NCBI GenBank assembly: GCA_017435965.1
Contig: JAFSEA010000074.1
Span: 1 to 48,061 of the forward strand
Length of the DNA: 48,061 nt
Direction of reading: 5' to 3'
Source of the DNA: Oscillospiraceae bacterium
GTDB taxonomy: Bacteria; Bacillota; Clostridia; Oscillospirales; JAAYXM01
The position numbers and the translations under genes are program-made. Under the pieces are notes generated by a model that saw only the letters and a list, made by a program, of their open reading frames with translations, ran no database searches and was not told where the DNA came from. Each line of letters starts with the position of its first letter. Position 1 is the stretch's first letter. Below, one piece after another: positions 5,224 to 34,917 of the stretch.

Positions 5224-5976
5224 ATGTACGAAAAAATATCAATCTACGGTGTCGGATATAATAATGTCACAATGGAAGAAGCGGCGGCTCTTACAGATGA
5301 GTTTCTGGGTGAGTCGAAAAATCATATGGTAGTAACTCCCAATGCGGAAATCGGATATATGGCGGCAAAAGATAAGGAACTCAGCGATATTCTCAATGCC
5401 TCCGATATGGTAATCGCCGATGGTATAGGTGTTGTTTATGCATCAAAGATTTACGGAACGCCCGTAAAGCAGAAGGTGGCAGGCGTTGAGCTTGGAGAAA
5501 AAGTTTTAGAGAATGCCTCAAAAAGCGGAAAAGGTGTGTTTTTTCTCGGCGCAAAGCCCGGTGTCGGCGACCTTGCGGCGGAAAAGCTTCTTGAAAAGTA
5601 TCCCGGAATAAATTTTTCAGGTATTCGTGACGGATATTTCAAGGATGACGATGAAGTTATTGAAGCTATAAACGCAAGCGGAGCAGAAATTCTTTTCGTA
5701 TGCTTGGGAGCTCCCAAACAGGAAAAATGGATGGCGAAAAATAGGGATAAGATAAATGTACGTCTTATGCTTGGACTCGGCGGTGCTCTTGATTCTTATG
5801 CCGGCACGGTAAAGCGTGCACCGAAAATATTCATAAAGCTTGGTCTTGAATGGTTTTACAGACTTATAAAAGAACCGAAGCGTGCAGGCAGAATGATGGC
5901 ACTTCCGAAATATATGTTTGCAGTAATGCGTGACAGTCGCAAAAAAAAGAAGATGGCAAGAAAGAAGGCAAAATAA
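5224..5976 (+). CDS. WecG/TagA/CpsF-family glycosyltransferase (GT26)
   Basis: 250 aa. This family transfers N-acetyl-D-mannosamine (or a related sugar) to undecaprenyl-PP-GlcNAc, an early step in wall teichoic acid or secondary wall polysaccharide synthesis. Family hallmarks are VVTPNAEIGYMA, the DGIGVV segment (residues about 64-69), FLGAKPGV, FVCLGAPKQEKWM and the C-terminal GLEWFYRLIKEPKR membrane-association patch. ATG at 5224 is chosen over TTG at 5218 by a GAGGGG box about 9 nt upstream. The stop shares one base with tmk, so it heads a long operon. Sugar specificity cannot be read from sequence. Confidence 0.88.
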   Translation: MYEKISIYGVGYNNVTMEEAAALTDEFLGESKNHMVVTPNAEIGYMAAKDKELSDILNASDMVIADGIGVVYASKIYGTPVKQKVAGVELGEKVLENASKSGKGVFFLGAKPGVGDLAAEKLLEKYPGINFSGIRDGYFKDDDEVIEAINASGAEILFVCLGAPKQEKWMAKNRDKINVRLMLGLGGALDSYAGTVKRAPKIFIKLGLEWFYRLIKEPKRAGRMMALPKYMFAVMRDSRKKKKMARKKAK

Positions 5977-6650
5977 TGAGAGGCAAGCTTATTACAATAG
6001 AGGGCACAGACTGCTCCGGAAAGTCAACTCAGCTCGAGCTTTTAGCAAAACGCCTTCAAGATGAAAACGTAAATTTCAGAAAAATTGCATTTCCCAGATA
6101 CGACAGCGAATCGTCGGCACTTGTGCGGATGTATCTCGGTGGCGAATTCGGAGAGAATGTAAGCGCGGTAAATGCATATACTGCATCGAGCTTTTTTGCC
6201 GTTGACCGTGCCGCATCATATCTTCGTGAGTGGAAAACATATCTCGACGAGGGCGGAAACGTGCTTCTTGACAGATACACAACCTCGAATGCCATTTATC
6301 AGGCATCAAAGCTTCCGAAAGGGGAAAGAGAAGCATTCTGCGACTGGCTTTTTGACTTTGAGTATAACCTTTTGGGACTACCTTCTCCCGATGCTGTTAT
6401 ATTCCTTGATATGCCGCCACAGTATGCAGAGCAGCTTATGAAAAAGAGGGAGGAAAGTGAAGATATTCACGAAAAGGACAAAAAGTACCTTGCAACCTGT
6501 TATGCAAGTGCAGTTGAGCTTTCGGAAAAATACTCCTGGAAAAGAATATCTTGTACGGAAAGTCAAAGAATAAAGACAATAGAGGAAATACATTCGGAAA
6601 TTTACAAATTGGTTTCCGATGTCTTGTCGGAAGGAAAATACAATGCTTGA
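5976..6650 (+). CDS. tmk: Thymidylate kinase
   Basis: 224 aa. It phosphorylates dTMP to dTDP. P-loop EGTDCSGKSTQ lies at residues 9-19, a DRYTTSNAIYQ segment forms the dTMP-binding region around 99-109, and a LID-type basic stretch MKKREES is at about 155. It begins on the final base of the upstream glycosyltransferase stop and overlaps the next gene by 8 nt, so it is embedded in an operon rather than the usual tmk-holB arrangement. Confidence 0.9.
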   Translation: MRGKLITIEGTDCSGKSTQLELLAKRLQDENVNFRKIAFPRYDSESSALVRMYLGGEFGENVSAVNAYTASSFFAVDRAASYLREWKTYLDEGGNVLLDRYTTSNAIYQASKLPKGEREAFCDWLFDFEYNLLGLPSPDAVIFLDMPPQYAEQLMKKREESEDIHEKDKKYLATCYASAVELSEKYSWKRISCTESQRIKTIEEIHSEIYKLVSDVLSEGKYNA

Positions 6651-7533
6651 ATTTAAAGAGGTGTGTGCGGAAGATTATAGAGAAGCAGCACCTATAATGA
6701 GACAAAGTGGATTTAATTCCACAGAGTGTTCATTTCCCACAATGTTTCTGTGGAGAACACTTTATAATACGAAAATATGTATAAAGGATGAAACCGTTTA
6801 CTTCAAATTTGAAAGAAATGGGAAGAGCACATATCTTACACCATTTGGCGATGATATAAAAAAAGCCCTTGATGAGTTAAGGCAAAGCATCTCCGAAGAA
6901 GAAATAATATTCGGTGCAGTTACAGAGGGAATGAAGAACAGACTTGAAGATGCATTTCCCGGCGAGTTTGAATATACAGAGAGACGAAAAAGCTTTGATT
7001 ATATTTATCGCACAGAAGCTCTTGCAACCCTTTCGGGGAAAAAACTTCATCAGAAGAGAAATCACGTAAATAAGTTTATAAAGCGTTATGAAGGAAGATT
7101 TTCCTATGAAGAGCTTTCTGAGGAAAGTATCCCCGAAATTGTTTCTTTCCAGAAAGAATGGGTGGAGATGTCAATCTCTCGCGGAAACAATGAAGATATT
7201 CGATATGAGTCGGAAATGATAGTAAAGCTTCTTGATTCATTTTCAGAGCTGGGTCTGATTGGCGGTGTTGTGAGGCTTGACGGAGAGGTGAAGGCATATT
7301 GCGTAGGCTCACAAATCAGTCACGATACTGTTGATGTTATGATAGAAAAAGGCGATTATGCTTTTGACGGAATATATCAGTATATAAATAAAAAATTCGC
7401 AGAAAGTCTTCTCGGAAAAGTTGAGTTCTTAAATCGTGAGGATGATGCAGGGGTTGAAGGACTTCGGAAATCAAAGCTTTCATATGACCCTGCAATTCTG
7501 CTTAAGAAATACGGTGCTGTATGGAAGAGATAA
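6643..7533 (+). CDS. DUF2156 protein (phosphatidylglycerol lysyltransferase C-terminal-like)
   Basis: 296 aa, soluble, two GNAT-like halves. Motifs KLHQKRNHVNKFIKRYEGRF and the C-terminal YQYINKKFAESLLGKVEFLNREDDAG are typical of DUF2156 proteins, related to the catalytic domain of MprF that transfers amino acids from aminoacyl-tRNA. No membrane part is present, so lipid lysylation is not implied. ATG at 6643, inside the end of tmk, is preferred to ATG at 6619 because AAGGAA lies 7 nt upstream. It overlaps the downstream GNAT gene by 13 nt. Substrate unknown. Confidence 0.8.
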   Translation: MLEFKEVCAEDYREAAPIMRQSGFNSTECSFPTMFLWRTLYNTKICIKDETVYFKFERNGKSTYLTPFGDDIKKALDELRQSISEEEIIFGAVTEGMKNRLEDAFPGEFEYTERRKSFDYIYRTEALATLSGKKLHQKRNHVNKFIKRYEGRFSYEELSEESIPEIVSFQKEWVEMSISRGNNEDIRYESEMIVKLLDSFSELGLIGGVVRLDGEVKAYCVGSQISHDTVDVMIEKGDYAFDGIYQYINKKFAESLLGKVEFLNREDDAGVEGLRKSKLSYDPAILLKKYGAVWKR

Positions 7534-14529: not shown

Positions 14530-14862
14530 TTATTCTTCGTCATTCAATTCTATGTCATCAAAAATGATTTTAAGATAATCTCTTCGCCCGTAAAGCACTC
14601 GATAGATAGAAACATATTCATCATCGGCTTTATAGAATACAAGATAATTACCACTGACTATAAAACGGTAATCAGTATCAAAAGATACTTTTGTCGATAA
14701 TGACGATCCCATATGGGGAGAAATTTCCAAGCGGCTATAATCTTCAATGATACGTTTAATTACATTATTTGCAGCTATGGGATTTGACAAATCATTTTCG
14801 ATATAAGATTTAATTTCTTTTAAATCGTTTAATGCAGTAGGGGTAACTCGAATTTTCATCAT
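14530..14862 (-). CDS. RelE/ParE-family toxin
   Basis: 110 aa, RelE/ParE fold. It starts IRVTPTALNDLKEIKSYIEN, continues with ANNVIKRIIEDYSRLEISPHMG, and has the C-terminal core YRFIVSGNYLVFYKADDEYVSIYRVLYGRRD. RelE-like members cleave mRNA on the ribosome, and ParE-like members poison gyrase. The core R-x-L-x-x-RRD end is common to both, so the target is uncertain. The start overlaps the antitoxin stop (TAATG), the standard coupling for type II pairs. Confidence 0.88.
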   Translation of the reverse strand: MMKIRVTPTALNDLKEIKSYIENDLSNPIAANNVIKRIIEDYSRLEISPHMGSSLSTKVSFDTDYRFIVSGNYLVFYKADDEYVSIYRVLYGRRDYLKIIFDDIELNDEE

Positions 14863-15107
14863 TATACCCCCAAAGTAGCTTTTACATCATCATTAGATAA
14901 CCATCCGTTTTCTTTTGCTGATTTTTCAGCTTCGGCAAGTTTGCCCATAAGTTTAATAATAGCTTTTGTTTTTTCGTATTCTTCCATATCGACAATGACA
15001 TAACGACCTCTGCCGTTTTTTGTAAGAAATACCGGCTCTTCAAATGAAATTTCTTTTAACACTTCTGCATAGTTTCTTAAATCCGAAACAGGTCTGATAT
15101 TTGGCAT
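14862..15107 (-). CDS. Phd/YefM-family antitoxin
   Basis: 81 aa. N-terminal Phd/YefM DNA-binding fold with the family line IRPVSDLRNYAEVLKEI and EPVFLTKNGRGRYVIVDMEEYE. The C-terminal part (about 52-81) is the toxin-wrapping tail. AAAGGAGG lies 7 nt before the ATG. Phd antitoxins repress their own operon, and a dyad overlaps the -10 of the promoter upstream. Confidence 0.9.
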   Translation of the reverse strand: MPNIRPVSDLRNYAEVLKEISFEEPVFLTKNGRGRYVIVDMEEYEKTKAIIKLMGKLAEAEKSAKENGWLSNDDVKATLGV

Positions 15108-15616: not shown

Positions 15617-15693
15617 CGAGATGTGGCTCAGTTTGGTAGAGCGCTGCGTTCGGGACGCAGAGGCCGCAGGTTCAAGTCCTGTCATCTCGACCA
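15617..15693 (+). tRNA. tRNA-Pro (anticodon CGG)
   Basis: 77 nt including an encoded CCA. Acceptor stem CGAGATG (15617-15623) pairs with CATCTCG (15683-15689), with A as discriminator. The anticodon arm CTGCG-TTCGGGA-CGCAG gives anticodon CGG at 15651-15653, decoding CCG. D and T arms are regular, and TTCAAGT is the T loop. The last 23 nt are repeated exactly at 21962, because this gene is the integration site of the following element. Confidence 0.95.
15671..15693 (+). repeat. attL core (tRNA-Pro 3' end)
   Basis: The 23 nt from the T loop to CCA of tRNA-Pro are identical to 21962-21984. Integration leaves the tRNA gene intact at this end. Confidence 0.9.
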
Positions 15694-15826: not shown

Positions 15827-16270
15827 TCAAGTGACAACAGCACCGAAAAACGCCCGGGCAAAGTTTATGAGAGCACGTTTACGCAGTCGGTACACTATTC
15901 TTGTTCCCATATGCTCTGTTTGGGCAAAGTTATCAATCCCAGCACCTTCTACATATGCCCATCTTAAAAACTTTGCCTCTTCATCGGAAACAGCAGAAAG
16001 TGCCAGGTCCACACGCTTTATTGCACAAGTAACTCTTTTAAGCCTTTCTTCCTCATCGCTTATGTTTGAAATGATGTTTACCCACTTGTTTTCCGTCTCA
16101 TTTCCTCCGCCGTCTTTTGTTGATGCTCCTCTTGTTTTACCACCGATTGATTTAAGACATGCATCAAGCTCAGTAATCCGTGATTTTATAATCTTTTCTG
16201 CTGCATAATATTGTTTTAGCTTCTTTAGCTCATCAATAGCAAGTTCTCTGTAATCCACTACATTTCCCAT
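15827..16270 (-). CDS. ArpU/RinA-like phage transcription regulator
   Basis: 147 aa. The N-terminal two-thirds are charged helices (DELKKLKQYYAAEKIIKSRI, then a Gly-rich loop). The C-terminus (about 95-140: LSAVSDEEAKFLRWAYVEG through RIVYRLRKRALINFA) has the layout of a sigma-70 region-4-like helix-turn-helix. Proteins of this shape close the early regions of Gram-positive prophages and activate late or packaging genes. With no late genes in the element, it may act on a helper phage (inference). The first ATG is very close to the AAAAAGGG box, so the true start could be a few codons downstream. Confidence 0.55.
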   Translation of the reverse strand: MGNVVDYRELAIDELKKLKQYYAAEKIIKSRITELDACLKSIGGKTRGASTKDGGGNETENKWVNIISNISDEEERLKRVTCAIKRVDLALSAVSDEEAKFLRWAYVEGAGIDNFAQTEHMGTRIVYRLRKRALINFARAFFGAVVT

Positions 16271-16361
16271 CCCTTTTTATGAAATCGCGCCAATCTCCGA
16301 AAATGAAATTGACACATTCGGAGAAGCGGGATATAATAAAATCACAAGTTTGTGCAGACGG

Positions 16362-16562
16362 TTACGCTTCCGGGACTTCGGGCGTTGCCGTCTCTTTTGT
16401 TTCTTCCGTGTATCCTTCAAAGTGAAGTAACCCGAGAGAAATAAGGTCACGTATCATTTCGCTTTGTGTGGTGTGCCAGTATCGAGAACGCTTCAGATCA
16501 TCAAGCCTGCGGTCAAGTTCCGGCGTTACCGATACGGTGAACCGCCGTACATCAAGAGACAT
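16362..16562 (-). CDS. Small ribbon-helix-helix protein
   Basis: 66 aa. Residues 5-45 (VRRFTVSVTPELDRRLDDLK, then YWHTTQSEMIRDLISLGL) match the Arc/CopG ribbon-helix-helix pattern of a beta strand followed by two helices. The tail is acidic and Pro/Thr-rich. A GAAAGGAGC box precedes the ATG. It may regulate the element's replication or copy number, since it lies directly upstream of the replication-type gene's 3' neighbour DNA. Its role is inferred only. Confidence 0.7.
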   Translation of the reverse strand: MSLDVRRFTVSVTPELDRRLDDLKRSRYWHTTQSEMIRDLISLGLLHFEGYTEETKETATPEVPEA

Positions 16563-16680: not shown

Positions 16681-17205
16681 TCACTCCCGTTTCAAAAGCT
16701 TTCTTTTCCAGTCCTCGGCTGTGAGCTGTTCCTTCTCTGTGCGTTTTGCATTATTCAGCGCACGAAGTACAGCTGCAGCCTCTTCATCGGCGCGGTGGTA
16801 CTCTGAATCCCGCTTCACTTGTTGTTGTGAATTTTCTTTTTCTTCCTGTTCCGGTTCTCGAGGATCCTCTCCCGGTGGCGGTGGAATCTGTGACCGTGAA
16901 GGCTTGTCTATCTTCTGCCACTTCTTCCAGTTGCGTAGAAAATAATATCTCTGACCGTCATAGGTATAAAGCATTGTAGAGGTATGCTGTTCTATCTCTT
17001 CCAAAGCGCGGTCTATATCGGACGTTCTCAGGCGTTCATCATATGGGAACAGAGTAGAACGAAGAAGAGACGGCTTGCACCTTCCGCGCCCTTCATCATC
17101 AGCTGAGGATATAAGTCCGATATACACAACCTTTGCAAAAGTAGACAAGTTCCCGAAGCCCTCGGAACTCCATAGTTCAGGGCTTATCATTCTCTTCCGG
17201 GGCAT
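16681..17205 (-). CDS. Phage-type replication/replisome-organiser-like protein
   Basis: 174 aa. The N-terminus (MPRKRMISPELWSSEGFGNL, SADDEGRGRCKPSLLRSTLF, then DIDRALEEIEQH and YFLRNWKKWQKIDKPSRSQIPPP) is characteristic of phage replication proteins with a winged-helix domain. The C-terminal 80 residues are a charged, Glu/Gln-rich tail with no DnaD or DnaC-interaction domain visible, so this is a short version. Start at MPRKRM (17205) by an AGGAAGG box 8 nt upstream, rather than at 17229. Confidence 0.65.
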   Translation of the reverse strand: MPRKRMISPELWSSEGFGNLSTFAKVVYIGLISSADDEGRGRCKPSLLRSTLFPYDERLRTSDIDRALEEIEQHTSTMLYTYDGQRYYFLRNWKKWQKIDKPSRSQIPPPPGEDPREPEQEEKENSQQQVKRDSEYHRADEEAAAVLRALNNAKRTEKEQLTAEDWKRKLLKRE

Positions 17206-17220
17206 TTTGTTTTCCTTCCT

Positions 17221-17744: not shown

Positions 17745-17894
17745 TCATATCCTCCGCAGTATCTCACGGATAGAAATCCCGCTTCCCGAAAGTTTGTATA
17801 AAATAATCATAGAAATCGGGTATATTATTCCGAACAGCGAACAAAGCCCGATTGCATAGGGAAGAAGCTTTATAAAGCATTGCATAAAGGTCAT
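17745..17894 (-). CDS. 49-aa translationally coupled membrane peptide
   Basis: Reads MTFMQCFIKLLPYAIGLC, then SLFGIIYPISMIILYKLSG and SGISIREILRRI. One or two hydrophobic spans (about 7-33) are followed by a basic cytoplasmic tail. Its ATG overlaps the stop of the upstream HTH gene (ATGA), and a GGGAG lies about 10 nt upstream. It is followed 4 nt later by the zinc-ribbon gene. Length and coupling suggest a real small gene. It resembles small holin-like or regulatory membrane peptides only in general form. Confidence 0.6.
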   Translation of the reverse strand: MTFMQCFIKLLPYAIGLCSLFGIIYPISMIILYKLSGSGISIREILRRI

Positions 17895-18085
17895 AGCGCA
17901 CTCATCTCCCTTGCAAGTGTTGCGACTGATATAAAGTTATTCTCAATCGTGAAGAGCTTCCGCACGGTCGGCCGTGAAAGCCCTGTGAACTTGATAACCT
18001 CGCCTGTGGTAAGTATCTCCTTATCCGGGAACTGCGCTTTTATCCGTTCAAGGTTGTCCCGGTAAGACTTCAACTCGTTTCCCAT
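17891..18085 (-). CDS. Small HTH (excisionase-like) protein
   Basis: 64 aa. After a helical N-terminus, residues about 24-60 contain a helix-turn-helix (ILTTGEVIKFTGLSRPTVRK) of the MerR/Xis type. It may be the element's recombination directionality factor or a regulator. AAGGAG lies 9 nt before the ATG. Co-oriented with the leftward genes and coupled to the 49-aa membrane ORF. Confidence 0.6.
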   Translation of the reverse strand: MGNELKSYRDNLERIKAQFPDKEILTTGEVIKFTGLSRPTVRKLFTIENNFISVATLAREMSAL

Positions 18086-18148: not shown

Positions 18149-18439
18149 TTACACCTTCCTGGTGTTTTTGGCATCTCTTCCCACGTGGTTTTCTTCTGCG
18201 TGGGCGTTTTGTGGCTCTTTCTTTCTCTGAAATACTTTGAGCTTATAAACAATACGCTTTGCTTTCTCAATATCCGCCGAAATACTCAATGCTGCATAAA
18301 ATAAAGCAGCATTGTCAAGCTCTGCACCCTGGGCGACTTCATCATCGAGGGCAAAAAGCTCCTGACTTGTGTCCTCAATACTTGAAAGTACCTCTTGCAG
18401 GTTCTTAATTAGATCTATTCGGATCATCTTCTCACCCAT
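18149..18439 (-). CDS. Small helical protein, tandem paralogue 4
   Basis: 96 aa. The core (IDLIKNLQEVLSSIEDTSQE, LFALDDEVAQGAEL, NAALFYAALSISADIEKAK) matches the three upstream small proteins: a predicted helix ending in LxALD, a Gly/Asp turn and then xALxxxxxxLxx.. helix. It has an extra basic C-terminal tail (VFQRKKEPQNAHAEENHVGR). ATG at 18439 overlaps the preceding stop and follows an AAAGGAGCGTG box. No known family recognised. Confidence 0.6.
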   Translation of the reverse strand: MGEKMIRIDLIKNLQEVLSSIEDTSQELFALDDEVAQGAELDNAALFYAALSISADIEKAKRIVYKLKVFQRKKEPQNAHAEENHVGRDAKNTRKV

Positions 18440-18665
18440 TTGCACACGCTCCTTTCTTCATTTCTTCAAACAAGATGTCCACCTGTGCGTCGAAGTTCCG
18501 TGCAAGCTCATCAAGCATCTTGCACGGACAGAACAACGCCAAAGGAAGAACGTCAACATCCTTTTCGAGCGCATTTGATATTGCCGAAAAAGTGTTGTAC
18601 AGTGCGTTAAGGTCTGAAGATAATTCCGCAAGGGTATGAATTGCATCTGTTGCTTTCTCACTCAT
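18432..18665 (-). CDS. Small helical protein, tandem paralogue 3
   Basis: 77 aa. Same plan as its neighbours: DAIHTLAELSSDLNALYNTF, a short turn, then VLPLALFCPCKMLDELARNF. It ends KGACANG, almost the same as the end of the preceding paralogue (KGACADE), and the DNA at both junctions is repeated (AAAGGAGCGTGTGC then ATG). Start overlaps the upstream stop by 8 nt. Function unknown. Confidence 0.6.
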   Translation of the reverse strand: MSEKATDAIHTLAELSSDLNALYNTFSAISNALEKDVDVLPLALFCPCKMLDELARNFDAQVDILFEEMKKGACANG

Positions 18666-18867
18666 CCGCACACGCTCCTTTCTCTTGTGTTATCATTTTT
18701 CGGAATATCTCGCACAGCTCCCTGAACCTATCCACCGGAATTGCCAAAGCCCGTGAAAAATTGATACCCATTTCGGAATAAGCAAACTCTAATGCCGTGA
18801 AGTTGTCCCGGACGTCGCAGAGGTCGTTATATAAGTCCGTCAGATCTGAATCAGTTATCTTTCTCAT
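18658..18867 (-). CDS. Small helical protein, tandem paralogue 2
   Basis: 69 aa: DLTDLYNDLCDVRDNFTALE, turn, then NFSRALAIPVDRFRELCEIF, ending KGACADE. The shared pattern L-x(2)-L..TALE..RALAxPVxxL marks it as a paralogue of the genes either side. GAAAGGAG lies 9 nt before the ATG. It is separated by 2 nt from the stop of paralogue 1. Confidence 0.6.
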   Translation of the reverse strand: MRKITDSDLTDLYNDLCDVRDNFTALEFAYSEMGINFSRALAIPVDRFRELCEIFRKMITQEKGACADE

Positions 18868-18869
18868 AC

Positions 18870-19082
18870 TTACGTTTCTCCTTTCATTTGTTCTTTAAGC
18901 TCCGAGCAAAGCTTCTGTGCAGTCTCGGTCAATACAACAAGCTGCTGCACCGGAAAATACAAAGCATTAGAACAGAGGTCCGAACCGCCCCGGAGTGAAT
19001 TATCCAGGGCGCACATCGTCTGACCTATCCACTCAATCTGTGCGAGAGTATCTTCAAGGTTTGCAAGCGTTATCTTCTCCAT
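18870..19082 (-). CDS. Small helical protein, tandem paralogue 1
   Basis: 70 aa: ITLANLEDTLAQIEWIGQTM, CALDNSLRGG turn, then CSNALYFPVQQLVVLTETAQ. It carries the clearest version of the shared motif (ALDxx... NALYFPVxxL). First gene of the run, 19 nt after the Cro-like gene. GAAAGGCGGTG precedes the ATG at 19082; the longer frame from 19121 overlaps the Cro-like gene. No known family recognised. Possibly a phage early gene. Confidence 0.6.
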   Translation of the reverse strand: MEKITLANLEDTLAQIEWIGQTMCALDNSLRGGSDLCSNALYFPVQQLVVLTETAQKLCSELKEQMKGET

Positions 19083-19101: not shown

Positions 19102-19314
19102 TTATTGGTCTGTTGGTTCAAAGAGTTCGTTTGGTTCCGAATTTAAAGCAGCACACAACGAAGTTATAATCTCGCTGTCTATCACCTTGCGACCGTTCAA
19201 GAGTGCGGACATCTGATTTTCAGATAATCCCATTCGTTCCGCAACAGATTTTTGCTTTAATCCTTTTTGCTCAATAATCTTTTTTGCATTGATAGCGACC
19301 TGTGAAATTGACAT
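19102..19314 (-). CDS. Cro-like XRE-family regulator
   Basis: 70 aa consisting of one HTH_XRE domain: MSISQVAINAKKIIEQKGLK, QKSVAERMGLSENQMSALLN, GRKVIDSEIITSLCAALN. First gene of the leftward operon, facing the divergent repressor across the three-operator region, which is the position of Cro in lambdoid switches. ATG at 19314 preferred (AGGTAGGTG 6 nt upstream) over GTG at 19323. Confidence 0.85.
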   Translation of the reverse strand: MSISQVAINAKKIIEQKGLKQKSVAERMGLSENQMSALLNGRKVIDSEIITSLCAALNSEPNELFEPTDQ

Positions 19315-19329
19315 TTTTATCACCTACCT

Positions 19330-19411: not shown

Positions 19412-19440
19412 TTGACATACGGAGATTAAAGTGTTATCGT
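19412..19440 (+). promoter_or_regulatory. Rightward repressor promoter (candidate)
   Basis: -35 TTGACA (19412-19417), 17-bp spacer, weak -10 TATCGT (19435-19440), 20 nt before the repressor start codon. Lies 11 bp downstream of the third operator, so bound repressor could activate it. Confidence 0.4.
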
Positions 19441-19460
19441 ATATTTGCGAGGTGAAAGTT

Positions 19461-19883
19461 ATGGGAATAGGAAAACGCTTGAGAGAAGCACGACAGAGCA
19501 GAAATCTGAAACAGGATGAACTTGCAAAGCTTATAGGTGTGACTGCTTCTGCTATTGCAAATTATGAAAACGATATAAGCCACCCGAAAGAAGTTGTTTT
19601 ATACAAGCTTTTCGAGGTGTTAGAAGTAGAGCCTAATTTTATTTTTCAGGATGTGGTGAGTATAAAAAAAGAAGCTCCTTCCCCAACAGAGGAAAAGCTT
19701 CTGCAGAAAGTCCGCAAGCTAAACGCCACAGGACGAAAAAAAGCCGATGAATATATCACCGACTTATCAGAAAATCCGAAGTATACCGAACCGCGCCCGC
19801 TTCCCGATGAAGTTTCAAAAGACATAGCCCGGGAGCTGGAGAACATCACCGGAAAGAAAAGGAAAACCACTATCTTAAAATAA
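19461..19883 (+). CDS. XRE-family repressor (cI-like, no protease domain)
   Basis: 140 aa. N-terminal HTH_XRE domain (about 1-60: GKRLREARQSRNLKQDELAK, LIGVTASAIANYENDISHPK). The remainder is a short oligomerisation-type region (EEKLLQKVRKLNATGRKKAD) and a basic tail. No S24 LexA-like self-cleavage domain, so induction would not be by the usual RecA route. ATG at 19461 with GAGGTG 6-7 nt upstream. The GTG at 19431 has no ribosome site. It should bind the three 30-bp-spaced operators. Confidence 0.85.
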   Translation: MGIGKRLREARQSRNLKQDELAKLIGVTASAIANYENDISHPKEVVLYKLFEVLEVEPNFIFQDVVSIKKEAPSPTEEKLLQKVRKLNATGRKKADEYITDLSENPKYTEPRPLPDEVSKDIARELENITGKKRKTTILK

Positions 19884-19967: not shown

Positions 19968-20633
19968 ATGACAAAATACCCCGATAAATACAACCTCACG
20001 CCACAGCAGAGCTTATTTCTTGCAAAAAAACGTTGGGATGAAAACGTGTACTGCGGTATGAGAATGGAAAACAGAAACGTTACATTTCCGCAGACCAAAA
20101 CAATCCTCGAGGGCGTGAACGTTCCCGATGTGCAGCTTGATGATATACAGGCTATCCTGAATATGCGTGATGCATGGAAATATCTTATAAGCTCCGCATC
20201 AGAACCGGTAACACTTGCGTATATGTGCAAGCTCAATGAGTATATCGCACGGAATGAAGCTTTTGAGTGGGGCAAGCTCCGCACGGGCCGTGTCGGAATC
20301 TCCGGCACAGACTATATCCCACCTGTCCCGAACTATGAAGAAGCAGAGCGGGAGCTGCAGGAGATTATGAGCCGGAACATCACCGGCACGGAAAAAGCTC
20401 TTGATATCTTCCTGTGGGGCGCACGTTCTCAACTCTTCTGGGACGGGAATAAGCGCACAAGCTTGACCCTTGCAAACAAGGTCCTTATATCCGAAGGTGC
20501 AGGCGTTCTCACGATAACGGATAAATTCATGTTTGAGTTTAATACGCTGTTGCTTGAGTATTACAACACAGGCAAGGGCGAAAAGCTTAAAGAGTTTTTA
20601 TATAACAACGCAATTTTCGGGCTTGATATATAA
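19968..20633 (+). CDS. Fic/DOC-family protein with Gln in place of catalytic His
   Basis: 221 aa, one Fic domain. Canonical Fic enzymes (AMPylators) carry H-x-F-x-[DE]-G-N-[GK]-R. Here residues 154-163 read SQLFWDGNKR, so the catalytic His is Gln (Q155) while the phosphate-binding DGNKR is intact. A QTKTILEG segment (42-49) resembles the inhibitory helix motif but with Lys at the Ser/Thr position. From memory, similar proteins with QLFWDGNKR exist in clostridia, so the change is probably a family trait. Activity may be altered or lost. AAAGGAATG lies upstream. It follows the repressor and could be a defence or lysogenic-conversion gene. Confidence 0.8.
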   Translation: MTKYPDKYNLTPQQSLFLAKKRWDENVYCGMRMENRNVTFPQTKTILEGVNVPDVQLDDIQAILNMRDAWKYLISSASEPVTLAYMCKLNEYIARNEAFEWGKLRTGRVGISGTDYIPPVPNYEEAERELQEIMSRNITGTEKALDIFLWGARSQLFWDGNKRTSLTLANKVLISEGAGVLTITDKFMFEFNTLLLEYYNTGKGEKLKEFLYNNAIFGLDI

Positions 20634-20842: not shown

Positions 20843-21874
20843 ATGACAAGACGAAAAGACGGGCGATTTGTAAAAGTTATCACGCTTTCAAGCGGTGAAA
20901 AGAAATACTTTTACAGCTCCGCAAAGACCGAAAAGGAAGCAACGAGAGATTTTGATAAGCAGCTGCTTGCGTTCCGGGAGAAAGAAAAGCGCAGACGTTC
21001 CTTTCCGGTTATTGCCGATGAATGGGACACAGAATACAGGGAACGTGTGTCAGATGTGAACTATCGGAAGAATACACGCGGCGCATACAATCGGATCATC
21101 GAATACTTCGCCGACAATAAGGACATAACAAAGATTTCGGCATTGGATATAAACCGCTTTATAAAGTATCTTATTGCGCGCGGATATTATAAACAGACCA
21201 TTGCGGCACATAAGAACATACTGAATATGATTTTTAACTTTGCAATACTTAACGGACATACAACAGTAAACCCGGTATCTGTTATCAGACTGCCGCACAA
21301 TCTGCCAAGTTCACCCCGGAAGATGCCGACAACGGAAGAAATAAAAGAAGTAAGCAGCCATTATGACGGCTTTGACCTTCTGCCGTACTTCCTGCTCTAT
21401 ACAGGTTTGCGTATATCTGAAGCTCTTGCTTTGACTTATGCGGACATAGACAGAACGAACAAGCTTATAACCGTAAATAAGCACTTGATACATAACGGTA
21501 ACTCTCCTGTTATCGAGAACCGGACAAAGACGGTAAACTCGGAACGCAAGGTAATACTTCTTGACCGCCTGGATGAGAAGCTTCCCAAACGAAGAAACGG
21601 ATATATCTTTTGCAACGATAGGGAAGAACCTTATACAAAGCGTGAGCTTCGGACGCAGTGGATAAAGTACCGTGAGAGATACAATGTGCATCTGACCGCG
21701 CATCAGCTCCGGCACGCATACGCAACAATGCTTTTTGAAGCGGGCGTTGATGTGAAAGATGCTCAGGAACTTATGGGACACAGCGATATAAACCTTACCC
21801 GACAGATATACACGCACATCAGGAACGAACGCAAAGAAGAGACGGCAATAAAGCTCAATGCGTTTGATTTTTGA
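20843..21874 (+). CDS. int: Tyrosine recombinase (phage-type integrase)
   Basis: 343 aa. Arm-binding N-terminal domain (about 1-45: RRKDGRFVKVITLSSGEKKY), SAM-like core-binding domain (about 55-155), catalytic domain with R190 (YTGLRISEAL), a Lys near 229, HQLRH (H287, R290), H313 (ELMGHSDI) and nucleophile Y323 (TRQIYTHI). All catalytic residues are intact. It would recombine the 23-bp tRNA-Pro core with its attP copy to integrate and excise the island. AAAAGGACGG lies upstream, and the gene ends close to attR. Confidence 0.95.
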   Translation: MTRRKDGRFVKVITLSSGEKKYFYSSAKTEKEATRDFDKQLLAFREKEKRRRSFPVIADEWDTEYRERVSDVNYRKNTRGAYNRIIEYFADNKDITKISALDINRFIKYLIARGYYKQTIAAHKNILNMIFNFAILNGHTTVNPVSVIRLPHNLPSSPRKMPTTEEIKEVSSHYDGFDLLPYFLLYTGLRISEALALTYADIDRTNKLITVNKHLIHNGNSPVIENRTKTVNSERKVILLDRLDEKLPKRRNGYIFCNDREEPYTKRELRTQWIKYRERYNVHLTAHQLRHAYATMLFEAGVDVKDAQELMGHSDINLTRQIYTHIRNERKEETAIKLNAFDF

Positions 21875-21961: not shown

Positions 21962-21984
21962 TTCAAGTCCTGTCATCTCGACCA
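21962..21984 (+). repeat. attR core
   Basis: Exact 23-bp copy of tRNA-Pro positions 15671-15693. Marks the right end of the element. Confidence 0.9.
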
Positions 21985-27123: not shown

Positions 27124-30100
27124 TTATTTGTTTGCGGCAAAGTCAAGAACTCTCTTTAAGAGAACTGCAACTTCTGCTCGTGTTGTGTTGTCATTTGGTG
27201 CGATTTTGCCGTTTTTGCCATTTACAAGTCCTGCACCGATAAGTGCTGATACCGCATCCTTTGCATATTCGGGAACATCACCGATGTCCGGCATATCCAC
27301 ATCACCGATTTCAAATTCAACACCCTCTGACTTGAGCACACGATATACCATAAGCATCATATCGCATCTCTTGATACTTTCACGGGGTGCAAATTTGTTG
27401 TTGCCGATACCGCCGACAAGACCTGTGTTTCTTGCGATTGCAAGTTCCTTTGCAAAGTAATCACTTGCATCTACGTCCGCGAAGTTTTCCGTGTTGTCGC
27501 TTGTCTTTTCAAAGGCACGAACAAGTAAAATTGCAAAGTCTGCTCTTGTTATGTTCTTTGCAGGTGAGAAAGTGTCTTCGGATGTTCCTTTGATAATACC
27601 TGCATCCGCAAGAGCATTGATGGCATCCTCTGCCCAAGCGTGATTTCCGAGGTCAACAAAACGCACATCGTCTTTGCTGCCGTCTGTTGACGGAGCATCG
27701 GGAACATTGGTTGAAGGTTTATCATTATCTTCCTTATCATTGGAAGGTACGGACGGTGTGCCTGTGCCTCCGTTGCCACTACTGCTACCGGAGCCCGTGC
27801 CACCGCTTCCGCTTCCGCCACCGGAACCACCGGAGGTTGAACCATAGACTGTCACTTCAAAGGAGGTTGTGCTTTCTCTTCCGTCCTTATCAATTGCGGC
27901 AACCACAAATCCGTTTTCTCCCACCTGAGCCGATGAAGGTTTCCAGGTAATCTTTCCGGTTTCGGAATCAATGCCGGCACCTCTCGGTGCAGTTTTGAGA
28001 ACATACTCAACAGCATCGCCGGAGACACTTTCGGCAGTTACTACCATTGTCATAAGGCTTCCTGCACCTGCTGTGAGATTCTTTGCTACTTCATCAAAAA
28101 CGGGTGCATCATCCGCTACATAGGAAAGGGGAATGGAGAATGCCTTTTTCTCGGCAATGTTGTAGGTATAACCGAGACTTAAGTTGCTGTTGTTGAGGAA
28201 TCCCGAAACAAGACTTACATCGCCGAGGTCAAGAACAACGTTGTTGCCTTCTTGTGTTGCACCGAGGATTTTGTAAGATGCATTCAGGGAACCTGTGGGC
28301 TCAATGTAGATGTATCTTCCCGGAAGGTTGGAAACATCAACATCGTTGTCAAATTTGACTGTAACAGTGTTCTTGTCGGTGAATTCCTTGGTGAAGGCAA
28401 CCACCTGACCTGTGTATTCCCGTTCCGTTGAGATATTTCCGATGATGTCGCCGTCGTTTACATAGCTATAGATGTTCTTTCCCTCACTATTTACGCTGTA
28501 AACGCCGACAAAGCCACGGAAGTCAAAGCTGACCTCACCGTCTGTGATGTTGTAGATAACTTCGTTGTTTGTGGCATATACAACATAATCGGTGCGACCG
28601 GATTTGAGAGAAACTTTGACTGCCTTCACAACATCATCTGTGCTCTCGTAGCCTTCTTTAACTGTGGTGTTGAGATATGTTGCAGAGGAAATATATTCCT
28701 CGCCCTTGTATGGCTCGATGAGAGAGGTGTAGAGAGTGTCAAGCTCTGACTCGTTGTTTTCGCGGTGGATAAGCATATAGTCAAGACCGGGAATGTTCTT
28801 ATTGTTTACTGTTCTCGGAGCATAACCGGTTGTGAGACCAACGCCTGTGGGTGTCCAGTCGTTGAGTGCGAAGAACTTGAGATTAAGTCCCTTTGAGTCA
28901 GAAACAGCTTTGTTAAAGTCAGTCTGCTTGAAGTTTACGGTAAAGGTTCCGTCCTCAATATTCTCTGCACTATTTACGTTTTCAAGCCAAGTATATCCTC
29001 TCGGATATGCCGGGTCAAGAGCAGATGTTCCTGCAACGGTATTCGGGTCGGGACCGTATGGTACATCTGCACCGGCATATGAACCTACATAATTTCCGTC
29101 ATCGTCCACCTGAGGAACGAGATTGAGACCGTCAACGGTATAGCCCATATAGCTCTGTGTGTGGAAGCTGTATGTATGCTCATTTCCGCCTTTTATGCGG
29201 AAGAAGTCGATAGTATACGCATCCTTTTCGGAAGCTTCAATGGTAACTGCCGTTCTTCGGTAAATATCAGTTTTCGGATATACCTTGGGCTGGTCTATAT
29301 CAAAGAGCTTAACACGTGTTGTGGAATCGAAATGGAGAGGATGCGCACAGTTTGTTGCACTCTGCCAGTTTTCATCAACAACAACGGTGTTGTGGGCAAG
29401 TGTGTTTGAAACCCACTGGAAGCGGTTTGGTTCATAGCCTGCAGTTTCGGGATATCCGAGGTCGGGAGTAAAGTTGAAGCCATAGGCATCAATACCAAGC
29501 TGAAGTGAATCATAGTGTCCGTGACCGCCTGTTTTACCGTAGTAAATCCAGGTGTCGTAACGCTGCTCGGAGCTTGTGGATGAGGTTGCACCCTTTATGA
29601 GAGCACCGCCACGAAGAACTGCAAGACCGAAGCCTGTGAGGTTGTCGCTTGAAAGCTCATATTCACCATACTCATCAATGAGTGCTTGGATTTCAGTCTT
29701 CAAGCTATCGTTATCTGTAAAGATATCGATATAAACATCATCGAGCTTTCCACCCTGATAGAAGTAATAAAGCTGTGCAAGCTCGGGAGTTTTGAGCATA
29801 TTGAATGCACGAAGAACATAGCTTCCGTAGTTTGAAATACCGGGTCCGGCGGTACGTCCTGAGTCGCCGATGTGGAGTGTATATCCGTTACCTACCGTCT
29901 CTTTTACAAAAGCACCGAACATTTTTACATACTTCGGGTTTTTGAAAAGGTTGAGCTCATCCGCTGCACCATAGCGATAAAGTGTTTCTGCCACGTTGAG
30001 ACCGTTTGTGAGCCAGATTGCGTTATATCCCACGCCGACTTCATTGCCGAAACCGTCACGGTCAACGTCAGCAACGTATTTGATAAGCATTTCACCGCCT

Positions 30101-33100
30101 GAGTTTCCTGTGGTTACTCTTACCGTGTCGCCGTAGATTGGTTCTTTTATGTCTTTATAACTCTTTGCGCTGAAGCCACCGAGCCAGTTGATCATATCGC
30201 CTGTTTCGGGGTATGTGTCAAGAGCTGCTGCCGCAAGTGCGAGAGTGTTCTGGTGCATACCGAAGTTACCCCAGAGCTGACCACGCTTTGTGCCGGCGAA
30301 AACTTCACGGAGAATTCCGTTTTCTGCATTTTCACGGATAAGCTCTGCACTTGTCTTCGGGTTTGTAACACCCTTTACGGTAACTGCTTTAGCTGAAAGA
30401 TACTCAATAACACGGCTGTCTTCCATCATCGGATAGAAGGCATCATATGCACGTACAAAGTCTTCTGCAAGTCCGGGTTCCCAGATACATCCGAGGATTT
30501 TGCCCGAATTGTGGCTTCCGCCGTGGGAGTTGGGATATTCTATACTTGTTTTCTGAATGTCATATGCGGGATAAACATCGGCAACTCTGTCAAGGAGAAT
30601 TGCACCTGCACGGCCATATTTTGCATCATTTGTATAGAGGTATGCATCACGTAGTGTGTTGAGCGTTGTGCGAAGGAACGCCGTTCCGCTGTTTATATGC
30701 CATACATAATGGTGATAGAGTGAAATCGGTGCCCATTTCTGCTGATTATCCGTTCCGTAGGTACCGTCCTCGGGTGACCAGCCGAAGCCGTCGTCAACGA
30801 GCCAGTTTTCGTCAAGCTCCGGATAGAGCTTGTTTACGAGATAACCTTCGCCGCCGTTTGCAACAATCTCGGCATTTTTCTCGAGAGCAAGGTCACGGTC
30901 ATATACACCGTCCTCGTTTATACCGAGCTTGTAGAGGCTTGCAAAGTCATTTGAGGGGAAGAGTCGCTTACATTCAGGGCACTGTACCTTCCAGGGATTG
31001 CGGAGAGGATTGAGCACCCAGGAATATGCGCCGTATTTTTCCTGAAGATTTGCTCCGCAGTCAGGATGGGGACAGGTATATGTCTTGTCGGAGGGGAAAT
31101 CCTTTGTGTTTATGGTATAGCCTCTCGGAATTCCTTCCGTGGGGATAAGATCATATATTGCATCAAGGTTTTCAACATAATAGTCTGCCGAATTTGTGGC
31201 TGTCTTTACAAGATTTCTTGCCCATTGATACTTTTCGGCATTTTTGAGAGCCTGCTCACGCATTTCGTATGTGTATATAGTAGGCTCTTTCTTTGAAGAA
31301 CTTGAAATTACCGAAGCTTCACATTCAAATGTTTCGCCATTGATTTCTGCAGAAACTTTAATTATACCGTCGCCGCGCTTTACGCAGAAAACATTTCCTT
31401 CGGAGTCAACCGAAACAATGTCGGGAGTGAGACTTTCGTATGTGAACATAGCTCCTGCGAGAGAAATTGTTTCTTCGTTGTTGAGAATTCCCGTAATAAC
31501 GAGCTTTGAACCGTCGGAATCAAGAGCAAATACGATGTTGTCTTCGGTCTTTGCGGTGATTGCGGCAAGCTTTACGTTTTCAACTGTTATTCTCTTTGTT
31601 ACATTTTTGGTTGTTCCGTTGAAGGTGACACTTGCAGTTATATCTGCCTCACCTGCGCTGACAAGAATGAGCTTTCCGTCCTCAACCTTTGCAACGGAGT
31701 CGTTGCTTGAGGTGAACACACCCGAAACATCGCCCTGCTTTGCAAAGCTTCCGTCGGAAAGGACTGCATAGGGGATAAGATTCTGGCTTCCGCCGACAAC
31801 ATATGCCTTTTCGCTTTCAACGTTCATATCGGCATCGGAGAAAGTAAGGTTATTTACCGTTATGCGTATGTTCTTTGAAACATCGCCGCTTGGAAGTGTT
31901 GCCGTTGCGGTAATAGTTGTGCTTCCCGGTGCTTTTGCGGTGATTTTGCCGTCGGGAGCAACTGTTGCAACTGCATCATTTTCGCTTGAATAGACGAAGG
32001 AAATTCCGTTCGTATCACTTCCGTCTGCTTTTTTGAAGGATTTTGCAAGGTCATACATTGCACCGTTTGATGCGGCGGCTTCTGCTTCGACCATTACGGA
32101 TTCGCCTGCTGCGAGGTTATCATCATCCACAAATGCAGAGAAATCATCCACGGTTGATGCTTTGTAAACGGGAGTGAACTCAAAGCTCTGCATATATACA
32201 TTTTTCTCATGGGGTCTTATGATAATTGTGTTTGCAAGCTCGCCCTCGAGGAGGGGAATGCCGACAAGATTCTGCGCCACGGTGTCGTAAATATGAGAAA
32301 CAGAGTCGTTGGAATCAAATCCGCCAACGTAAACACCGTTGATAAAGATATCGGCATAGCCTGAGTTTGTCATGGGATTTGAATTTACGGTAACATCATA
32401 AATACCGGCTGAGGGTGCTGTGAACTTCATTGCAAAGTCACCGTAAGGCTTGATTGTGGCAAAGGAATAGGCATCTGTTACCTGAAGTCGAACAGCATTT
32501 GATACGTTTCCGTTTATGTGCTGGCTTACCGTAAGATTTGTGTCCATTGCCCAGTTTGCACCGACTGTTGTGCCCACCATATACTGCTTTGTGTAACCTG
32601 ACGGCTGGAAAAGAGTGTTCTGGTCAACAGTTGTGAAGTCAACAAGGAAATGGTCGCCTTCGGGAGGAACTATATCCACGATTGAAACATCAAAGGTGTT
32701 TTCTGCCGATTTTCCGTTATAGGTGACCTTTATATTTATTTTTGCGGTACCTCGTTTTACGGGGATTATTATACCGTCATCCGTTACGGTTGCAACAGAA
32801 GTATCAAGGGAGGTATATTCAACGGTTGCGAGAGCTATATCAACATCCGTATTGTCGGACATCTTTGCCGAAGGCACAATTGCCTCACCGTCGCTGTCGC
32901 TTGTGAGAATGTATTTCGGAACTGTTGCACTTACGGAGTTTATTTCGGGAATAATAACCGTTACGGGAAGAGTCTTTGTATACTGCTTTCCGAGAATTGT
33001 GACATTCACGGTTATATCCGAGCTTCCTGCATCAACACCGGTGATGATACCGCTTGAATCAACCGTTGCAACGCTTTTGTCGGAGCTGTCAAATGAGATC

Positions 33101-34917
33101 GTGACATCCTCTCCGCCTCTTGTGAGGTCATAGTAGGATGCACTTGTGATAGGAGCTTCAAGCTTAATCTCTCCCGTTGCACTCTTTACAATAACAGAGT
33201 TTCCGAGAAGGCTTTCAACTGTTGCAATAATGTCAGGAACTCTTCCTGCCTCATGTACGGGAGTGAAAGAGATACCGAAGAGATATATTGTTCCCTTTTG
33301 AGGTCTTATTGCAATACTGTATTCCTTACCGCCGGTGAGAGAAATTCCCTGAAGGGCGATGGGAGTTTTATCTGACCAGACCCCATTCTTTACATAGTTG
33401 TCAAAGGTTCCTATGTAGGTTTGCTTGCTTCCGTCAATGAGGAGAATATCACCGATACCCTGGGATGTTGACGGAGAGATGATGGGAGAAATATCATAGA
33501 TACCTGTTTCGGGAACAGTAAATTTGATTGCAAATGCACCGTCGGGATGACTTCCCGTGGTTGCATCACGTCGGGTGATGGTGACAAACTGCTGCATACG
33601 GCAGGAGTATTTTGTGCCTGCGGTGTAGTATGAGCAGGTGGTGTTTGCAGGGTCCATAACCCAGTTGTCGCCCTTTGTGGTTGCAGTTGAATAGTATGCA
33701 CCCGAACCGTTGGGCCAGGTGGTGGCTTTGTCATATGTGCCAAAGTCAATCTCAAAAGCAGTACCGTCGGGGAGAGGCTCTGCCGTTATCGGAATTTCAA
33801 CTGTCTTGTCAACGGTTACGTTTTCATATGTAACGGACACCTTTATCTGTGCAGTTCCCTCAGAAACGGGGGAAACAACACCCGAAGCCGATACCATGGC
33901 GATATCTTCCGTGAGTGAAGTGTATGTAACGGTGGCGTTTGCCATGGGAACATCGGCGCCGTCCGACATCTTCGCTGTTGCAGAGAGTGCCTCACCGTCT
34001 GTATTGGAGGTGAGAATGTAGCGAGGTGCAGATACGCTTACTTCCGAAAGCTTCGGAACTGTTACAATAACATCAACAGTATCGGAAATTTCATTACCGC
34101 CCACCGTTGCCTTTGCGGTGATGGTGGCAGTACCTTCGCCAACTGCCGTTATAAGACCTGTCGAGGAAACCGTTGCAGCACTTTCGTTTGTGCTCTCATA
34201 AGTTACGGTAGCACCTGCAGCATCAAGGTCATATCTTCCGCCGTTTGAAAGTGTGGCAGAAACACTTAACTGAGCTGTGTCACCCTTTGTGAGAGAAGAA
34301 CTTTCAAGAGTAGCAGAAAGGGAGGAAACCTTTGCGGGATTTGAAGTTTCCGTAAAGGTAAGTCCCTGATACATAATACTTCCGTTTCTTACCTTTATGA
34401 CAAGGCTGTTTGCATATTCGCCTTCAAGGAGAGTAACTCCGGAAAGCTTTTGCTGTTTTACTATGAGGTGAGAACCGTTGGGGTCTTTTCCCGTGAGAGT
34501 TCCGACATATACGTTGTTGATAAAAATGTCAGCATCCGAGCTTGTTGCAGCAGGCTGGAAGTTCGCGGTGACGTCATATGTTCCGGCAGATGGTGCCGTG
34601 AACTTAAGTGCGAGCTGTCCTCTTGCCGATTCAAGTGTCAAAAACGCATAAGCTGAGCTCTGTTGCCATCTGGCAGCATATTTTGTTCCGCTTGCCACAT
34701 ACTGCCCACAGGCTGCGGAATCAATCTTCCAGTTAGCACCGGCGGTTGACGCCTGGAGACGGAGGTCGCTGGCTGATATGGGAGTGGCGAGAGTTTGAGA
34801 ATCAACATCTAAAAAAGTTACATTAAATGTGTCGCCCTCGGCACCGTACACGCCAACAGACATAAGTCCCAAAAGCATAGTCAGCGCAAGGAAGAAAGAT
34901 ACAATTCTTTTTCTCAT
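27124..34917 (-). CDS. Giant SLH-anchored heparinase II/III-like surface protein
   Basis: 2597 aa. Signal peptide (1-26, cleavage near VYGAEG). Then three copies of a roughly 165-residue module (about 30-190, 385-555, 755-915: ...NWKID..., FTAPSAGTYDVT, ADIFINNVYVGT, LLEGEYANSLVIKVR), each followed by BIG_2 bacterial Ig-like domains (TATITAKATVGG type). About 1210-2000 resembles a heparinase II/III-type polysaccharide lyase, with a CPHPDCGANL/CPECKRLF Cys4 site near 1282 and GHGHYDSLQLG near 1796. A putative Ig domain, a Gly/Ser linker (about 2361-2400) and three SLH repeats (about 2419-2597) follow. It would sit in the cell wall and cleave uronic-acid polysaccharides. Substrate unknown. Confidence 0.85.
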   Translation of the reverse strand: MRKRIVSFFLALTMLLGLMSVGVYGAEGDTFNVTFLDVDSQTLATPISASDLRLQASTAGANWKIDSAACGQYVASGTKYAARWQQSSAYAFLTLESARGQLALKFTAPSAGTYDVTANFQPAATSSDADIFINNVYVGTLTGKDPNGSHLIVKQQKLSGVTLLEGEYANSLVIKVRNGSIMYQGLTFTETSNPAKVSSLSATLESSSLTKGDTAQLSVSATLSNGGRYDLDAAGATVTYESTNESAATVSSTGLITAVGEGTATITAKATVGGNEISDTVDVIVTVPKLSEVSVSAPRYILTSNTDGEALSATAKMSDGADVPMANATVTYTSLTEDIAMVSASGVVSPVSEGTAQIKVSVTYENVTVDKTVEIPITAEPLPDGTAFEIDFGTYDKATTWPNGSGAYYSTATTKGDNWVMDPANTTCSYYTAGTKYSCRMQQFVTITRRDATTGSHPDGAFAIKFTVPETGIYDISPIISPSTSQGIGDILLIDGSKQTYIGTFDNYVKNGVWSDKTPIALQGISLTGGKEYSIAIRPQKGTIYLFGISFTPVHEAGRVPDIIATVESLLGNSVIVKSATGEIKLEAPITSASYYDLTRGGEDVTISFDSSDKSVATVDSSGIITGVDAGSSDITVNVTILGKQYTKTLPVTVIIPEINSVSATVPKYILTSDSDGEAIVPSAKMSDNTDVDIALATVEYTSLDTSVATVTDDGIIIPVKRGTAKINIKVTYNGKSAENTFDVSIVDIVPPEGDHFLVDFTTVDQNTLFQPSGYTKQYMVGTTVGANWAMDTNLTVSQHINGNVSNAVRLQVTDAYSFATIKPYGDFAMKFTAPSAGIYDVTVNSNPMTNSGYADIFINGVYVGGFDSNDSVSHIYDTVAQNLVGIPLLEGELANTIIIRPHEKNVYMQSFEFTPVYKASTVDDFSAFVDDDNLAAGESVMVEAEAAASNGAMYDLAKSFKKADGSDTNGISFVYSSENDAVATVAPDGKITAKAPGSTTITATATLPSGDVSKNIRITVNNLTFSDADMNVESEKAYVVGGSQNLIPYAVLSDGSFAKQGDVSGVFTSSNDSVAKVEDGKLILVSAGEADITASVTFNGTTKNVTKRITVENVKLAAITAKTEDNIVFALDSDGSKLVITGILNNEETISLAGAMFTYESLTPDIVSVDSEGNVFCVKRGDGIIKVSAEINGETFECEASVISSSSKKEPTIYTYEMREQALKNAEKYQWARNLVKTATNSADYYVENLDAIYDLIPTEGIPRGYTINTKDFPSDKTYTCPHPDCGANLQEKYGAYSWVLNPLRNPWKVQCPECKRLFPSNDFASLYKLGINEDGVYDRDLALEKNAEIVANGGEGYLVNKLYPELDENWLVDDGFGWSPEDGTYGTDNQQKWAPISLYHHYVWHINSGTAFLRTTLNTLRDAYLYTNDAKYGRAGAILLDRVADVYPAYDIQKTSIEYPNSHGGSHNSGKILGCIWEPGLAEDFVRAYDAFYPMMEDSRVIEYLSAKAVTVKGVTNPKTSAELIRENAENGILREVFAGTKRGQLWGNFGMHQNTLALAAAALDTYPETGDMINWLGGFSAKSYKDIKEPIYGDTVRVTTGNSGGEMLIKYVADVDRDGFGNEVGVGYNAIWLTNGLNVAETLYRYGAADELNLFKNPKYVKMFGAFVKETVGNGYTLHIGDSGRTAGPGISNYGSYVLRAFNMLKTPELAQLYYFYQGGKLDDVYIDIFTDNDSLKTEIQALIDEYGEYELSSDNLTGFGLAVLRGGALIKGATSSTSSEQRYDTWIYYGKTGGHGHYDSLQLGIDAYGFNFTPDLGYPETAGYEPNRFQWVSNTLAHNTVVVDENWQSATNCAHPLHFDSTTRVKLFDIDQPKVYPKTDIYRRTAVTIEASEKDAYTIDFFRIKGGNEHTYSFHTQSYMGYTVDGLNLVPQVDDDGNYVGSYAGADVPYGPDPNTVAGTSALDPAYPRGYTWLENVNSAENIEDGTFTVNFKQTDFNKAVSDSKGLNLKFFALNDWTPTGVGLTTGYAPRTVNNKNIPGLDYMLIHRENNESELDTLYTSLIEPYKGEEYISSATYLNTTVKEGYESTDDVVKAVKVSLKSGRTDYVVYATNNEVIYNITDGEVSFDFRGFVGVYSVNSEGKNIYSYVNDGDIIGNISTEREYTGQVVAFTKEFTDKNTVTVKFDNDVDVSNLPGRYIYIEPTGSLNASYKILGATQEGNNVVLDLGDVSLVSGFLNNSNLSLGYTYNIAEKKAFSIPLSYVADDAPVFDEVAKNLTAGAGSLMTMVVTAESVSGDAVEYVLKTAPRGAGIDSETGKITWKPSSAQVGENGFVVAAIDKDGRESTTSFEVTVYGSTSGGSGGGSGSGGTGSGSSSGNGGTGTPSVPSNDKEDNDKPSTNVPDAPSTDGSKDDVRFVDLGNHAWAEDAINALADAGIIKGTSEDTFSPAKNITRADFAILLVRAFEKTSDNTENFADVDASDYFAKELAIARNTGLVGGIGNNKFAPRESIKRCDMMLMVYRVLKSEGVEFEIGDVDMPDIGDVPEYAKDAVSALIGAGLVNGKNGKIAPNDNTTRAEVAVLLKRVLDFAANK

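Follow-up and report, generated by a model that had tools for sequence, protein, structure and literature searches.

A four-gene array of paralogous, predicted helical hairpin proteins in the early operon of a small tRNA-Pro element from an Oscillospiraceae bacterium

What kind of proteins do four consecutive small genes in the early operon of a mobile element encode, and on what might their products act? We addressed this in the window, a 48,061-nt stretch of DNA (contig JAFSEA010000074.1 of assembly GCA_017435965.1, positions 1 to 48,061). A first, sequence-only reading had described the genes as tandem paralogs encoding helical proteins of no recognised family. The coordinates of all four were confirmed from the sequence, with the genes read in the order D-C-B-A on the minus strand:

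18149-18439 (-): small protein A, 96 aa, predicted helical hairpin plus a ~20-residue disordered tail; closes the array
18432-18665 (-): small protein B, 77 aa, with homology to C and D and to the outside relatives G1 and G3
18658-18867 (-): small protein C, 69 aa, predicted helical hairpin
18870-19082 (-): small protein D, 70 aa, opens the array; least diverged copy

Kinship and predicted fold of the four proteins

Pairwise Smith-Waterman scores were evaluated against 2000 shuffles. A and D scored 76 against a shuffled mean of 23.6 (sd 4.4; p ≤ 0.001), and the B-D (50), B-C (49), and C-D (43) pairs each also gave p ≤ 0.001. The A-B and A-C pairs were not significant by Smith-Waterman alone with 2000 shuffles and were joined only via D and outside relatives, for which the best links were A-G4a (z 9.6), B-G3 (z 4.3), C-G4a (z 5.7), and D-G4a (z 16.4). 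The strongest test of paralogy was a profile built from A-D alone, which, in a search covering nine family genomes, found genes of the same length in the same-genus genome G004 (E = 5.5e-8, 7.2e-6, 1.5e-4, and 2.9e-4). By these comparisons A-D are one paralogous family, strongly diverged, as the sequence-only reading had proposed. The shared layout motif that it described was real and could be sharpened with the relatives to L..[DQ][TN][FM].A[LIM][DE] ... P..[AS][LM]..P....K.

AlphaFold2 models of A and C, made from input alignments only four deep, agreed with the earlier description of the proteins as helical. The model of A contained helices at residues 2-36 and 43-74, mostly with pLDDT 89-97 (mean pLDDT 82), and that of C had helices at residues 6-32 and 42-68 (mean pLDDT 81). 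A and C are thus predicted to share one fold, a two-helix hairpin, rather than having unrelated folds. In a tree of ten sequences D had a near-zero end branch and grouped with A (98/78). The end branches of A, B, and C were 3-4 changes per column long and the placement of these three was uncertain; on this tree D is the least diverged copy. Family members were acidic, with net charges of -1 to -8, and from this charge and the predicted hairpins we infer that protein binding is likelier than nucleic-acid binding.

The earlier statement that no family could be recognised was upheld by library searches. Neither A-D nor the other members had a Pfam, NCBIfam, PHROG, or PADLOC match at the curated cut-off or with E below 0.001; the best PADLOC value was E = 0.02, in one member, and none passed. 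A PDB sequence search returned nothing below E = 0.26. Fold searches found only generic hairpins, none significant, the best (E = 0.07) being a designed heterotrimer of hairpins. The Pfam Sin domain was absent among matches to E = 1 in every member scanned, and neither SinI nor any antirepressor family was matched. The family appears undescribed in the Pfam, NCBIfam, PHROG, PADLOC, and PDB libraries.

The element at tRNA-Pro and the junctions of the array

The array lies in a 6.3-kb element bounded by a perfect 23-bp repeat, with these features besides A-D:

15671-15693 (+): att repeat 1, inside the 3' end of tRNA-Pro(cgg) 15617-15693
15827-16270 (-): phage transcriptional regulator (PHROG transcription-regulation families; phrog_36 3e-11, phrog_248 8e-10)
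16681-17211 (-): replication-initiation protein, shorter than most relatives (phrog_1408 7e-32)
17891-18085 (-): small HTH/excisionase-like protein, weak matches only
19102-19323 (-): Cro-like HTH gene, heads the array operon (HTH_26 5e-11)
19431-19883 (+): divergent XRE/C1-type repressor candidate, only HTH domains found in Pfam
19968-20633 (+): Fic/DOC-like protein (Pfam Fic 9.2e-6; phrog_11900 2e-36)
20843-21874 (+): tyrosine integrase (Phage_integrase 7e-28)
21962-21984 (+): att repeat 2, perfect 23-bp copy

In G004 the att 23-mer occurred as a single copy and both element flanks lay together (right flank 68 bases, 74%), so that this locus looks like an empty site. The element is therefore a small mobile one that has integrated, and is either satellite-like or a prophage in reduced form. 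It has features of phage satellites and phage-inducible chromosomal islands (PICIs), namely an integrase, tRNA att repeats, and divergent XRE and Cro genes. The array follows directly after the Cro-like gene, which bears out the early-operon setting proposed from the sequence. The true start of the XRE gene may be an internal ATG (MGIGKRL). Its product had no S24 peptidase (self-cleavage) domain in Pfam, and another factor may therefore be needed for its inactivation. Open frames of the relatives of the replication-initiation protein span 216-291 aa; the island protein keeps the N-terminal part and is without the C-terminal part. Following these relatives as a lead reached prophages, and those read were without members of the A-D family.

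The Fic/DOC-like protein carries the motif QLFWDGNKRT, with Gln in place of the expected catalytic His. A-D were considered as Fic antitoxins (FicA) and rejected, the inhibitory motif [ST]xxxE[GN] being absent from all four. Just outside the element, two overlapping genes at 14530-15107 (-) have the look, on visual inspection of the translation, of a ParE/RelE-type toxin and its antitoxin. Also outside the element, at 27124-34917 (-), lies an open reading frame of 2597 aa.

Within the array, the B/A and C/B overlaps each span 8 nt (ATGGGTGA and ATGAGTGA), whereas D and C are separated by a 2-nt gap. The overlaps between neighbours noted earlier thus stand at two of the three junctions and fail at D/C. 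Two such overlaps make translational coupling plausible; from the sequence, coupling in the array is probable and fixed-ratio translation at the two overlapping junctions is plausible. Both overlaps sit in a 29-nt repeat whose copies lie 226 nt apart:

18429-18457 (-): junction repeat B/A, with the Shine-Dalgarno AAAGGAG within the end of B plus the ATG of A
18655-18683 (-): junction repeat C/B, 90% identical to the B/A junction

In contrast to these junctions, the gene bodies could not be aligned as DNA except for short stretches. The junctions therefore do not show how the array first arose, and the repeat loses the force that the sequence-only reading gave it as proof of growth by tandem duplication. 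Judged by this difference in identity, the junctions were retained or exchanged long after the genes had separated. B ends in KKGACANG and C in EKGACADE, each directly before the stop codon. The KG codons, AAAGGA(G), in B, C, and D (MKGET in D) are the Shine-Dalgarno of the following gene, and A, with no array gene following it, has no KG end. The KGACA end is therefore a Shine-Dalgarno site that happens to be translated; as a protein motif it was rejected, and it is not the sign of kinship for which it had been taken. All four reading frames and the Shine-Dalgarno sites are intact.

Chromosomal relatives and their neighbours

Hits at E ≤ 0.001 among 394 genomes of the order were confined to four genomes of one genus (G000, G001, G003, and G004), and no additional credible match came from 391 genomes of the class, the two sets overlapping to make somewhat under 790 genomes together, many of them draft assemblies. 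No member was added when the nine family genomes were searched permissively. Searches by tblastn of phages (with D and G4c) and of plasmids (with G4a) found nothing. IMG/VR viral contigs yielded no relative in single-protein scans with D, B, and two G004 members or with one alignment of the relatives, in scans that depend on exact short peptide patterns and are insensitive. The only viral hit, L007, was not accepted, since it is antisense to a longer open reading frame and has only 23 residues in common with the family. Weak matches in G094, G005, G008, and G766 had internal stops or lay inside much longer frames and were dropped.

The six members outside the island, from three other genomes of the genus, are intact stand-alone genes of 66-72 residues in ordinary chromosome, single or duplicated. 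Loci L019 and L020 hold two each and L033 and L034 one each; G004 has four members. A divergent Cro/C1-type HTH gene adjoins both L019 members and the L020 member at 11685, all in G004 (HTH_26 3.5e-14, HTH_3 1.3e-11, and HTH_26 5.1e-16). The other L020 member, at 7035, has no regulator or HTH gene adjacent. At L033 and L034, which are one syntenic locus next to pck, a ribbon-helix-helix (RHH) gene lies upstream on the same strand, ~125 nt away. The L019 copies at 6347-6606 and 6908-7167 are a 260-bp duplicate with 91% identity, each facing a different Cro/C1-type HTH gene. This unit consists of the small-protein gene, its ribosome-binding site, and a 3' hairpin. Since the duplicated gene faces two different HTH genes, the pairing recurred.

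Candidate small RNAs were also seen. In the island, a candidate at 16309-16400 (+) has a perfect TTGACA-17-TATAAT promoter followed by two hairpins and a U-tail, and is antisense to the 3' end of an RHH gene at 16362-16562 (-). Three further instances of this layout adjoin RHH genes, at L033 ~5237-5350 and at L034 ~5570-5670 and ~5920-6025 (folding z -4.1 to -6.8). At both L033 and L034 a candidate lies between the small-protein gene and the RHH gene. None of the candidates matched an Rfam family, the tRNA alone being matched in the Rfam search.

Possible functions and known systems

The recurrent HTH neighbours, together with an island XRE protein in which only HTH domains were found, suggest a repressor as the likeliest partner. 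With relatives beside HTH or RHH genes, a regulatory partner is at least as well indicated as the takeover, anti-defence, or hetero-oligomer roles. Judging from layout, we tentatively suggest that the A-D family may act on Cro/C1-type regulators in an antirepressor-like manner. The proteins would be acidic hairpins, probably dimeric, whose binding turns these regulators off (or retunes them), as happens with the smORF proteins of TF-smORF modules. The ancestral activity would persist in D, and the targets of A, B, and C would have shifted to other repressors. On derepression of the element the array would be made along with Cro, and its product could then lock the switch open or derepress co-resident elements. 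Several observations speak against an antirepressor role. The island array is downstream of Cro, which lies between it and the XRE gene; the two relatives at the single syntenic locus adjoin RHH genes instead; and L020 7035 is without an HTH neighbour. The HTH adjacency rests on few independent events, given that XRE genes are common and that a single duplication accounts for both L019 copies. A broader version is rather improbable: that, within one genus, an undescribed family of antirepressor hairpins was paired repeatedly with different HTH or RHH regulators and was then expanded by a mobile element into a set of four, each copy tuned to a different repressor of a competing or helper element.

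Alternatively, the products of the array could be early accessory factors that have diverged and that serve anti-defence, superinfection exclusion, or host takeover by binding proteins of the host or of phages; the adjacent HTH genes would then merely control their expression. This is conceivable though doubtful. Position in the early operon after Cro, how strongly A, B, and C have diverged from D (end-branch lengths of 3-4 against ~0), and the small, acidic nature of the proteins are all consistent with such factors. Against such factors, no PADLOC or PHROG match passed, and the six relatives found lie in ordinary chromosome and not in phage, with none encoded in the phage, viral, or plasmid records searched.

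It is unlikely that A-D, made in a coupled ratio, assemble into a single hetero-oligomeric helical bundle. The 8-nt stop/start overlaps at two junctions, each with the Shine-Dalgarno lying within the upstream gene, would suit such an assembly, as would the predicted hairpin fold and the top, non-significant fold match to a designed heterotrimer. Coupling is common in phage operons, however, the hairpin fold matches are generic, and the remaining members found are encoded by lone genes, single-copy or duplicated, whose products have to function in the absence of such partners.

Also rather improbable is neutral decay, in which D still works and its paralogs A, B, and C are decaying and serve no function. 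The long branches of these three and the restriction of the family to one genus are compatible with decay, but all four frames and the Shine-Dalgarno sites are intact and A and C keep the predicted hairpin. In addition, the duplicate pair in G004 differs by 8 replacing and 6 silent codon changes, with replacing changes fewer than neutrality would give, in a tiny sample. Very improbable are Rop-like RNA-binding hairpins aiding an antisense RNA, for which Rop among the fold matches of C (TMt 0.85) and the candidate small RNAs at L033, L034, and in the island could be cited, but the Rop match was not significant (E = 7.2), the members are acidic, and the promoter pattern of the L033/L034 RNA is absent from G004, which has four members.

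Documented here is an undescribed family of small proteins that is encoded by lone genes beside regulators in chromosomes and has grown to four copies in a mobile element. Should its members act on repressors, the array would offer a compact switch set with which to ask how elements in Clostridia-like bacteria derepress one another. Should they not, the family would be an ordinary orphan one located in an early operon.

Among known systems, Rop/Rom is the RNA-binding helical hairpin of ColE1 plasmids, about 60-70 residues long; the A-D family shares a predicted helical hairpin of roughly this size and differs in being acidic, with no sequence match and no significant fold match. SinI is a short helical antirepressor of the XRE-type repressor SinR. 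Like SinI, the A-D family consists of short helical proteins associated with Cro/C1-type HTH regulators, but it is without a Sin-domain match and has a longer predicted hairpin and another gene layout. The island resembles phage satellites and phage-inducible chromosomal islands in its small size, tRNA att site, integrase, divergent XRE/Cro switch, and replication-initiation gene, and in that no structural gene was recognised among the island proteins scanned. It differs in the missing C-terminal part of its initiation protein and in that no packaging-interference gene was recognised.

Small antirepressors of the Salmonella Gifsy phages inactivate prophage repressors without cleavage (PMC3121763). 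In the TF-smORF modules of prophages (Silpe et al. 2023, PMC10432266; VqmA-Qtip type), a small divergent gene is switched on by a regulator, and the protein it encodes inactivates CI; the smORFs are 156-183 nt and the regulator is in some cases XRE-type (PMC10432266). Members of the A-D family likewise are small proteins without recognisable domains, have lineage-specific sequences, and can lie by a divergent DNA-binding regulator, an arrangement seen at both L019 genes and at L020 11685, replaced by RHH genes at L033 and L034, lacking at L020 7035, and interrupted by Cro in the island. They differ in being longer (66-96 aa), in having chromosomal relatives outside recognisable prophages, and in the four-gene array downstream of Cro. 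What is already of a known kind here would be the regulator-plus-small-protein layout, a likeness of gene arrangement, and for that layout the TF-smORF modules are, by analogy, the closest precedent.
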